From: a virus
DNA: 20,590 bases
IMG/VR virus record: IMGVR_UViG_3300018079_000042
Location: 1 to 20,590 of that record
Strand: one strand, 5' to 3'
Shown: one piece after another, positions 4,918-20,590 of the stretch
Numbering within the stretch: position 1 is the stretch's first letter
Layout: every line of letters begins with the position of its first letter
The notes under the pieces: generated by a model
Told to the model about the DNA's origin: nothing
The model's database searches: none
Seen by the model: the letters and a program-made list of their open reading frames with translations, nothing else
Position numbers and translations under genes: made by a program

Positions 4918-5127
4918 TTATCTCATCGGACTTTCGCCTTTACGTAGCACCCACCTTAATGCGTCTACCACCCCCTTTACATAGTTCGGCTCACGCTGCA
5001 TTTCTTTATGATGGGCATAGACCTTCTCCCCAGCGTCACACATTTTGACGATCTCCTCCTGCCTCCGCATCGGAGGTACAGCCGCCTTGTCAATCCTTTT
5101 CGATGAGGGTCCCCTTCTTGCAAGCAT
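4918..5127 (-). CDS. Small basic phage protein of unknown function
   Basis: 69 residues from ATG 5127, preceded by AGGA and 7 nt of spacing (AGGAAGTAAACA). The composition is basic, with Arg/Lys at both ends. The C-terminal half (VKGVVDALRWVLRKGESP) looks like an amphipathic helix with the VxALRWVL pattern seen in other small phage proteins. The ribosome-binding site overlaps the stop of the preceding gene (TAG at 5140-5138), so translation is probably coupled. No function can be given. Confidence 0.75.
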   Translation of the reverse strand: MLARRGPSSKRIDKAAVPPMRRQEEIVKMCDAGEKVYAHHKEMQREPNYVKGVVDALRWVLRKGESPMR

Positions 5128-5137
5128 TGTTTACTTC

Positions 5138-5365
5138 CTAGTCAGGGATCTTACACCGTTCAGGAAAAAGTCGTTGAAACTCCAAGATACCTACTAGGTG
5201 CTCTCGAGCACGGGAGATCTTATTTGGGTTAACCCCAGCTCGTTCAGCATCCTCGATCCACTGTCTCACGGTGTCTGGAGATATTAGATCTTTACCACGG
5301 ATGATGAAGATTGGTTCATCAGGAGGGATCTTATCCCATGTTTCTTGACAACAAAACTTAGGCAT
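5138..5365 (-). CDS. Small phage protein (W/A-rich helical motif) of unknown function
   Basis: 75 residues. ATG 5365 is chosen over an upstream ATG (5380) because GGGAGG lies 6 nt before it; that site sits in the last codons of the preceding gene, whose TAA (5369-5367) is 1 bp upstream. The pattern is EPIFIIRGKDLISPDTVRQW, then ERAGVNPNKISRAREH. I associate the arrangement F-I-L/I-RGxD, P-x-x-V-x-x-W, A-x-x-x-GV-x-x-x-K, AR-E with a common group of 70-100 residue phage proteins without assigned role. It has two or three helices and no membrane segment. It ends in TAG. Confidence 0.82.
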   Translation of the reverse strand: MPKFCCQETWDKIPPDEPIFIIRGKDLISPDTVRQWIEDAERAGVNPNKISRAREHLVGILEFQRLFPERCKIPD

Positions 5366-18330: not shown

Positions 18331-18456
18331 ATGGCAAATGCAGCGATCTTAAATCAAGCAAGCACCCGCTGGTATTTTCCAGTGGTTGGCGTGGTGCTTC
18401 GACAGATTATTAGAATCCCACGCGCCTTGGGCGCGATTCGGCCATGGAGTAGATGA
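18331..18456 (+). CDS. 41-residue small protein just before the portal gene
   Basis: ATG 18331 directly follows the preceding TAA (TAAATG), with GGGA about 8 nt upstream. The peptide begins MANAAILNQASTRWYFPVVG, has a hydrophobic middle (YFPVVGVVLRQII) and a basic end (RIPRALGAIRPWSR). Its TGA overlaps the portal ATG. The tight start and stop linkage on both sides supports a real, coupled gene; no function is known. Confidence 0.5.
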   Translation: MANAAILNQASTRWYFPVVGVVLRQIIRIPRALGAIRPWSR

Positions 18457-20384
18457 TGATTAGGGCCATCCCCATCAAGGGCCTCAGTGAGGAACGTGAG
18501 CGCGAGTTAAAGCACTATGTGCGCACGAACCTTGATCGCGCGATCCGTGGGACGCAGACGCTCTTTACCGAGCATGTCCCGCGCTGGCGCAAAATCTATA
18601 ATGGGGAGCCATTTGAGCAGGTGAAGAGCTTCCCATGGCACCGGGCGAGCAACTTCGTGGTCCAGCTGGTGGGCATCCATACCGATACCTTGGTGGCGCG
18701 CATCCTCTCCCTCATCTTTAAGACGGACCCGCTGTTTACGTTTACCGCGTTTGGTGAGCTTCCAGAGCATGTGAAGAAGGACCTGGAAGATTTCATGAAG
18801 CACGCCTCACTGGATGAGACGGAGCTCGCGATGTATAACGTGATCAAGGATTGGTTGTTCGATATCGTGAAACTGGGCTCATCGGTGGCGAAGGTGCCCT
18901 ACGTGACGGACCGCACCATCGTGGTTGAGCCCTCGTCAACCCCGAATGAGATCTCAGAAAGGGAGGTGGTGCGATACGACGGGCCCAAACCAATGAAGGT
19001 CCTCTTTACGGACTTTTTGATGTGGCCACTTGGGGTGCAGGACTTTAAGGACGCGATCATGAAGGTACACCGGGTTCGTCTCCATAAGGAGACCGCGCTC
19101 CTACGGGCCTATCAGGGGTTCTATGATCTTGACGTGATCAAGAAGTTGTACAGCCGGCCCGATCTCAGCAACCGGACACCTGTCGAGGTAAAGCAGGAGG
19201 AAAATACCGGCATCGTTTCATTGCCGGCGGATCGGTTGACGTTCTATGAATGCTGGATCGATAAATACCCACTGGTTGACGGTAGGTATTACTCACTGGT
19301 GTTGACCTACCACCTTGAGTCTGACAGCTTTGTCCGTAAGATCTATAACCCGTACAATACCGGTGATGAGCTCTCAGACGTCTTTATCGGGTGCAAGCTG
19401 TTTCCACGTGATGACATGTGGCACGGTCGTGGATTCGCGGAATTGCTTGAACAATCGCAGGAGGAGGCAAGCACCATCCACAACCAACGGCGTGACGCCG
19501 CCACCGCGGCCAACACAAACATCATTGTGGCTCGTAAGGACTCGATGTTAGACCTTAGCTTCCCATTATTTCCGAATAAGCCGTTGTTCGTGGACAGTCT
19601 AGACGATATTCGGGTAGAAAAGATGGGTCAACCGTCGACCTTTGAATTTGAGGAGGAACGGATTGCCCTTGACCTGGCGGAGCGAAGGTCAGGTGTCAGC
19701 CCGCCGATGATCGGCTACGGCGCAGGTGCGATGGGTGGAAAACGCGGGGTCTACTCCGCCTCAGGTACGCTATCCATGCTTCAAGAGGGTAACATGCGGA
19801 CTGACCTGAATATTATGGACCTGCGCGCGGCTGTTACCCGGACAGGTCGCCTTGCTTTAAAGTCATACGCGCTCGGGGGCGTGCACGAGCGTCTTCGTCA
19901 GAAGTTTGACCCGGCTCGCATGATTCGGATCTTACGGAGTATCGCGATGTACAATCAGCTGCAGATGGATCTGACCTGCAGCAATGCGTCGGTAAATCGT
20001 GAGGTTGAGCGTCAGCATGCAACCATGCTTGCTCAAACGATGAGCACGTATTATAAGGAGTCGATTGAGTTGGTCAAGATGATCATGATGATCAAGGACC
20101 CGACGCTCCAGGGTTACCTGATGAGCATCTATAAAGGAAGTAAGGTCCTCTTTCACAACATTCTAAAGAGCTTCGACAATGGAGACACCGAACGCATCCT
20201 CCCCAAACTCAACCTACCAGGAGCTGATCTCCCGGCTGGAGCCCCTGGCCAAGGAGTTCCTGGACAACAAGGAAACGTTGTACCTTTTGCTCAACAGCCA
20301 GGAATGGAGGGTGTTCCTACGGCTCCTGGGGCACCTGGAGAGCAGGTCCCGCCGGACGCTGGAGCGCTCCCACCTTCCGCCTGA
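18453..20384 (+). CDS. Portal protein
   Basis: 643 residues. Residues 58-83 (SFPWHRASNFVVQLVGIHTD) match the W-x-x-A-S-N...D-x-x-x-A-R signature of phage portals. Then come VAKVPYVTDRTIVVEP (wing/stem strands), long helices (LLEQSQEEASTIHNQRRDAA), the segment RRSGVSPPMIGYGAGA and a helical C-terminal barrel. The dodecameric portal is the head vertex through which TerL pumps DNA. The last 65 residues turn abruptly into Pro/Gly/Ala/Gln-rich sequence (LPAGAPGQGVPGQQGNVVPF), the part that overlaps the next gene. Two adjacent ATGs are possible (18453, 18456); GGAG at 18446-18449 suits the second slightly better. Confidence 0.9.
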   Translation: MMIRAIPIKGLSEERERELKHYVRTNLDRAIRGTQTLFTEHVPRWRKIYNGEPFEQVKSFPWHRASNFVVQLVGIHTDTLVARILSLIFKTDPLFTFTAFGELPEHVKKDLEDFMKHASLDETELAMYNVIKDWLFDIVKLGSSVAKVPYVTDRTIVVEPSSTPNEISEREVVRYDGPKPMKVLFTDFLMWPLGVQDFKDAIMKVHRVRLHKETALLRAYQGFYDLDVIKKLYSRPDLSNRTPVEVKQEENTGIVSLPADRLTFYECWIDKYPLVDGRYYSLVLTYHLESDSFVRKIYNPYNTGDELSDVFIGCKLFPRDDMWHGRGFAELLEQSQEEASTIHNQRRDAATAANTNIIVARKDSMLDLSFPLFPNKPLFVDSLDDIRVEKMGQPSTFEFEEERIALDLAERRSGVSPPMIGYGAGAMGGKRGVYSASGTLSMLQEGNMRTDLNIMDLRAAVTRTGRLALKSYALGGVHERLRQKFDPARMIRILRSIAMYNQLQMDLTCSNASVNREVERQHATMLAQTMSTYYKESIELVKMIMMIKDPTLQGYLMSIYKGSKVLFHNILKSFDNGDTERILPKLNLPGADLPAGAPGQGVPGQQGNVVPFAQQPGMEGVPTAPGAPGEQVPPDAGALPPSA

Positions 20385-20590
20385 GATGTACAAGGCGCAA
20401 GGGGCATTGCAGGTGATCAGGGAGATCAAGGCGTTTAAGGAGAACCTCAAACAGCTTGACGAGAACATGACTAAGTTCTTGGAGGAGTCAGACAAATCTA
20501 AGAGGACGGAGGTATTCTATGATGAGGAACTTGAGACTTTACAACGCGAGTCCGCCAAGTACACCGCAGGGCGGGCCGCCGGCGCCCAAC
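20179..20590 (+). CDS. Partial helical protein overlapping the portal 3' end
   Basis: An open frame from ATG 20179 runs past the portal stop to the window edge (137 codons, no stop). It begins METPNASSPNSTYQELISRL and is strongly helical: ETLYLLLNSQEWRVFLRLLG, SHLPPEMYKAQGALQVIREI, AFKENLKQLDENMTKFLEES. The pattern S-x-E-W...L...L-x-x-x-L...G-x-L-x-V-I is one I associate with small helical proteins often encoded right after the portal. About 206 bp overlap the portal in another frame. A later start (ATG 20386, 2 bp past the portal stop) is possible but would cut off the W-containing helix and has no ribosome-binding site. Confidence 0.72.
   Translation, partial: METPNASSPNSTYQELISRLEPLAKEFLDNKETLYLLLNSQEWRVFLRLLGHLESRSRRTLERSHLPPEMYKAQGALQVIREIKAFKENLKQLDENMTKFLEESDKSKRTEVFYDEELETLQRESAKYTAGRAAGAQ

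Follow-up and report, generated by a model that had tools for sequence, protein, structure and literature searches.

A dual-coded junction between a portal gene and a conserved small helical gene in uncultured tailed phages

SU10-type portals form a dodecameric ring at one vertex. A portal protein of this podovirus SU10/N4-like kind (643 aa) is encoded at 18453..20384 of the window, i.e., the whole stretch of 20,590 nt analyzed here, which derives from an uncultured tailed phage; all window features given below are on the + strand. The protein matches the Pfam family SU10_portal (35.8 bits versus a curated cut-off of 30) as well as phrog_1216 (E 1e-7), and its AlphaFold model resembles the portals of Pa223, N4, cyanophage A4, VP1 and SU10 (Foldseek, E 3e-20 to 3e-17). 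Compared to the described SU10/N4-type podoviral portals (PF23899; PDB 9nwm, 9yf8, 9k09, and 7z44), the fold is the same but the sequences are only weakly alike, at about 14% identity.

The portal ends in a low-complexity Pro/Gly/Ala/Gln tail of 59 residues after P584 (20205..20381), these four amino acids making up 66% of it, and residues 589–643 are predicted to be disordered (pLDDT about 31). An earlier reading from the sequence alone (the sequence-only reading) was thus right in calling the portal end Pro/Gly/Ala-rich and low in complexity, whereas its term "collagen-like" is too strong, as not more than about three consecutive Gly-X-Y triplets (GVPGQQGNV) and no long run are present. Downstream, a small helical gene, in the following gp2, extends over 20179..20590, with an ATG at 20179 in frame +1 to the portal, and runs off the contig end. 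Portal and gp2 consequently share 206 nt out of frame (20179..20384), which is long considering the median of 14 nt (interquartile range 8–26) that PMC8903798 gives for +1 overlaps in viruses.

Two constrained frames in the shared stretch

The overlap of about 200 bp noticed in the sequence-only reading is real. Start, frame, portal stop and gp2 stop are kept in 9/9 full close relatives (L002–L010; 92–94% portal identity), and retention of the overlap in these nine other contigs rules out an assembly artefact. By itself, an open +1 frame would say little about dual coding, as portal tails of non-overlapping relatives average 1.1 stops per tail in this frame. Variable sites were counted among six distinct haplotypes of the window clade, with the upstream portal sequence and the gp2-only sequence as references. 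Upstream of the overlap, 17/167 first, 7/167 second and 85/167 third portal positions are variable, compared to 14/67, 6/68 and 14/68, respectively, within it. The drop at portal third positions is significant (p 1.9e-5), and the same holds for gp2 third positions, corresponding to portal first positions, when comparing overlap and gp2-only sequence (14/67 versus 32/45, p 1.7e-7). With variation suppressed at the third positions of both frames, each frame restrains the otherwise free positions of the other. The synonymous-site analysis of both frames, which had been suggested along with the first description of the overlap, therefore indicates constraint in both. Judged from this pattern of substitutions, the overlap almost certainly exists with purifying selection acting on both frames.

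The signal of the gp2 frame is not evenly distributed along the overlap. Over its first 99 nt, 10/33 portal third positions are variable (versus 85/167 upstream, p 0.036), while the effect is stronger over the final 104 nt (4/35, p 1e-5), so that the true gp2 start could be located downstream of 20179. Pooling four other small groups likewise reveals suppression at portal third positions (22/118 versus 266/668, p 6.7e-6); in the same pool, gp2 third-position suppression is non-significant (31/114 versus 71/186, p 0.06), and one two-member group lacks portal third-position suppression (9/26 versus 38/167).

Portal and gp2 in the portal family

Portal-based searches gave 23 IMG/VR loci and then the best 80 of 161 confirmed loci, from which 69 distinct portal C-terminal regions were compared; these are not independent, several being near identical. 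In 66/69, gp2 adjoins the portal; the other three (L048, L061, and L070), with contigs that break off less than about 100 nt from the portal stop, allow no assessment of gp2. A long overlap is present in 46/66, always in frame +1. In the remaining 20, gp2 starts no more than 2 nt beyond or 4 nt ahead of the last base of the portal gene, and an in-frame gp2 start further inside the portal was found in 0/20. At the chosen starts, picked by ribosome-site strength except for the ATG of the window clade, overlap length ranges from 68 to 209 nt with a median of 113 nt (42 relatives). Counts on 42 relatives omit the near duplicates L003, L033, L093, and L103. In addition, L063 and L085 were dropped from some non-overlapping counts (relic search and codon usage, 18/20), the hairpin composition comparison was done without L063, L085, and L093, the relic-search profile without L012 and the tree without L003; the portals of L011, L022, L060, and L109 are incomplete.

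Of the 46 overlapping gp2 sequences, 43 are found by a profile of the 20 non-overlapping ones, 35 of them at E<1e-3 and that of the window at 0.006; the reverse profile finds 20/20 non-overlapping ones. Moreover, when the window clade, L021 and the deep relatives are left out of the profile, the window gp2 is recovered from 399 ORFs at E 5e-9. By these profile comparisons, gp2 of overlapping and non-overlapping relatives is homologous. The homologues adjoining portals in relatives, together with the profile matches, rule out a fresh orphan. A pre-existing downstream gene, as had been assumed in the sequence-only reading, is thus borne out. The further claim that its frame encodes helices continuing past the portal stop also holds by structure prediction. 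In the window, gp2 is cut off by the contig end after 137 codons, compared to a full length of 160 aa in close relatives; its residues 1–68 fall within the portal overlap. Alignment and helical model place a hairpin at residues 41–84 (20299..20430), with predicted helices H41–63 and H67–84 and the family motif (R/K)AQG (20392–20403) inside it. At a pLDDT of about 98, this hairpin is the best-defined part of the model.

Comparing gp2 with Pfam, PHROGs and PDB sequences gave no match of note. For its predicted structure, BFVD yielded only hits at E 0.05 or worse, the best being unnamed phage proteins of 71–98 aa, and the Z values of PDB hits did not exceed 6.4, a level that any hairpin may reach. 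Direct gp2 searches found no relatives in viral contigs, although the portal-based loci encode gp2, and none in phage records; in genome contigs, 0 of 35 gp2 pattern matches were confirmed. A scaffold-like gene, gp3, starts next to gp2 (20519..20590, frame +1 to gp2, with GGAGG at 20508–20512), and the gene after gp2 matches the one annotated after the portal in Caudoviricetes sp. vir526 (BK063670, L012). Throughout the portal family, gp2 thus occurs as a conserved gene for a small helical hairpin, placed between the portal and the scaffold-like gene. A role in head assembly together with portal and scaffold, as read from synteny only, is somewhat favored.

The portal of BK063670 shares 22% identity with that of the window and is likewise followed by a scaffold-like gene. 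Between them, a gp2-like ORF of 88 aa (L012 5579–5845) with AGGAG upstream has 209 nt in common with the portal, in frame +1. It is omitted from the annotation, and a gp2 profile that excludes this ORF matches it weakly (E 0.005). In L124 (MW202601), an unannotated, helical-looking small ORF (5072–5356) occupies the place of gp2 after the portal without overlap; no confirmed match to the gp2 profile was obtained for it (E 1.3). In close relatives, gp2 shares a further 140–143 nt with gp3, again in frame +1 (L005 5067–5209), so that only about 137 of the 483 nt of gp2 are free of either neighbor. At gp3 third positions, 12/45 sites are variable in this second overlap (five haplotypes) versus 81/181 in gp3-only sequence (four haplotypes).

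Concerning translation, a weak Shine-Dalgarno-like site, AAAGAG (20165..20170), was placed upstream of the gp2 ATG by reading the sequence; at the same place, AAGGAG is found in L021, the nearest relative outside the window clade. A strong Shine-Dalgarno sequence at the gp2 ATG is present in 0/6 window-clade haplotypes. Among candidate ATG/GTG codons, strong sites are found upstream of 28/87 in the gp2 frame versus 6/104 and 0/19 in the other frames. The weak site of the window clade and the +1 frame of all overlapping relatives would also be compatible with gp2 being reached by +1 ribosomal frameshifting, resulting in a portal-gp2 fusion and no separate protein. However, the gp2 ATG is conserved in the window clade, a strong Shine-Dalgarno sequence precedes gp2 in 28/42 overlapping relatives and separate gp2 starts are present in 20/20 non-overlapping ones, which makes frameshifting highly improbable.

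Origin of the portal tail and history of the overlap

The sequence-only reading had proposed that the portal extended its frame over gp2 and that its tail was created by this overprinting. The latter is not borne out, as non-overlapping relatives have similar tails (n = 20; 43–70 residues, median 52.5, 59–82% Pro/Gly/Ala/Gln) to those of overlapping ones (n = 46; 29–96 residues, median 46.5, 42–81%). With length and make-up being alike in both states, the tail is not a product of the overlap, and we regard its independence from the latter as very probable. A Gly-rich stretch followed by a hydrophobic residue and Gln terminates many tails, with and without overlap. In overlapping loci such as L089, L113, and L120, such an end (hydrophobic-Gln-stop) is spelled by the codons of the conserved Phe-(Asn/Ser)-(Glu/Asp) of gp2; similar portal ends also occur without overlap.

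A part of the extension claim persists, however, for the window clade. Its overlap reaches deeper into gp2 than in most overlapping relatives, with an additional segment (20322..20384) reading APGAPGEQVPPDAGALPPSA plus stop in the portal frame and the first hairpin helix in the gp2 frame. The distance from portal stop to the gp2 Gln codon is 14 nt in the window clade, 23 nt in L021 and 77 nt in 24 relatives; compared to the last, 63 nt of the gp2 hairpin are, therefore, also portal-coding in the window clade. In all six sequences of this clade, the portal frame of the segment is open to the portal's own stop with 55–70% Pro/Gly/Ala, while the matching stretch of L021 shows 30%. The G+C content of the shared hairpin stretch is 73% in the window versus a mean of 45% in 43 relatives with an earlier portal stop. 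In the window clade, the stretch thus seems to have been reshaped so as to serve both proteins.

Codon usage gives a similar but limited indication. Against a 5–95% range of r 0.21–0.73 for reference chunks, the gp2 frame of the window overlap is typical (r 0.49) and the portal frame is not (r 0.02), and the gp2 frame is also the more typical one in the six window-clade sequences, L021 and L012. These values lend modest support to gp2 being the older frame in the window clade. Across 42 overlapping relatives, the result is split, the gp2 frame being more typical in 19 and the portal frame in 23; codon usage accordingly fails as a general arrow of time. Taken at its broadest, i.e., as a lengthening of the portal over gp2 that made the whole Pro/Gly tail, overprinting is unlikely, and for the entire tail it is refuted by the tails of the 20 non-overlapping relatives. 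In 43 relatives with an earlier portal stop, the portal-frame reading of the hairpin averages 20% Pro/Gly/Ala and is interrupted by a stop in 40/43, so that a tail of this kind would not result from overprinting by itself. Given this composition, the richness in Pro and Gly is also not explained as a mere side effect of reading the hairpin in the other frame. An extension by about the last 20 residues in the window-clade lineage only remains plausible with modest support, the ancestral place of the portal stop being ambiguous on the portal tree (77 or 23 nt). Relatives in which gp2 begins at the portal end, named in the sequence-only reading as counterevidence to overprinting, do exist as a sister lineage (20/66), although neither the window clade nor L021 includes any.

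Whether portal and gp2 were joined or separated was assessed on a tree of 68 portals, tails excluded, the rooting of which rests on very long branches. Overlap is present in the deep relatives L030 and L012/L033, in the window clade with L021 and in a clade of 36 (with L070 not assessable), and the non-overlapping relatives sit between these groups as two or three lineages. Parsimony requires two changes of overlap state, and a single clade of non-overlapping relatives is not rejected, albeit at a borderline p-AU of 0.064. The overlap might, hence, be ancestral, and duplication of the shared stretch might later have separated the two genes in the non-overlapping relatives, a course for which the single frame common to 46/46 overlaps speaks as well. 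On the other hand, non-overlapping tails read in frame +1 (18 of the 20 analyzed) score like shuffles and thus reveal no gp2 relic, the branches at the root are long, and the more distant L124 portal is followed by its small ORF, unconfirmed as gp2, without overlap. An ancestral overlap is thus a serious possibility rather than a probable one. The L124 arrangement would fit the opposite course, in which gp2 was drawn into the portal tail by deletion, on one or more occasions. This is also in line with the shorter distance between a conserved portal Pro and a conserved gp2 Gln in overlapping than in non-overlapping relatives (163–259 versus 293–488 nt) at similar tail lengths, but conflicts with the identical frame of all 46 overlaps and their occurrence in the deep relatives; a derived overlap may be considered, yet stays short of likely.

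Proposed explanation and comparison with known overlaps

Overall, we favor as likely a dual-coded junction of two old head-region genes with a portal tail independent of the overlap. Interpenetration of portal and gp2 varies by lineage, from none via about 70–150 nt to about 185–209 nt, with the window clade near the maximum, its portal stop lying 63 nt further down in the alignment and its gp2 start presumably further up than in the commonest overlapping arrangement. Pro, Gly, and Ala codons would leave portal third positions free, which in frame +1 are gp2 second positions. As the latter decide the residue class, they would stay choosable in gp2, and the overlap might be tolerated for this reason. 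In the Pro/Gly/Ala codons of window-clade tails, A and T account for 37 and 38% of third bases versus 21 and 23% in the portal body, compared to 27 and 33% versus 24 and 27% in non-overlapping tails. That +1 suits a Pro/Gly/Ala tail would fit 46/46 overlaps being in this frame. Probably, gp2 has a start of its own within the portal gene and is translated in coupling with the portal, and its product would probably act with portal and scaffold in procapsid assembly, a step proposed from synteny only. More tentatively, and with considerable doubt, a hidden gene family could reside unannotated at the portal 3' end of many uncultured phages, the tail coding for a helical assembly partner, both being remodelled together and the +1 overlap being ancestral and undone in some lineages.

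The relatives provide a natural series of 0 to 209 nt overlap of the same two genes, in which making and undoing of overlaps is traceable and testable. Furthermore, a conserved small head-region gene left out of one annotated close-family record (BK063670) is flagged, and a low-complexity tail leaving the partner's second codon positions free in +1 offers a simple reason for hosting overlaps. In the open PMC literature, mostly screened by title and beginning of the abstract, no report of a similar overlap between a portal and its downstream gene was found, and PMC8008677 concerns a different one. PMC8227390 reports a proposal that disorder in one partner may relieve overlap constraint, which the predicted disorder of the portal tail fits. 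In the terms used there, portal third on gp2 second positions corresponds to cp32. As in same-strand +1 viral overlaps such as phiX174 D/E, named in the same paper, both frames are constrained here. The junction of portal and gp2 differs from overlaps of the D/E type in being, as far as shown, a terminal overlap of two old genes and not the birth of a new one.
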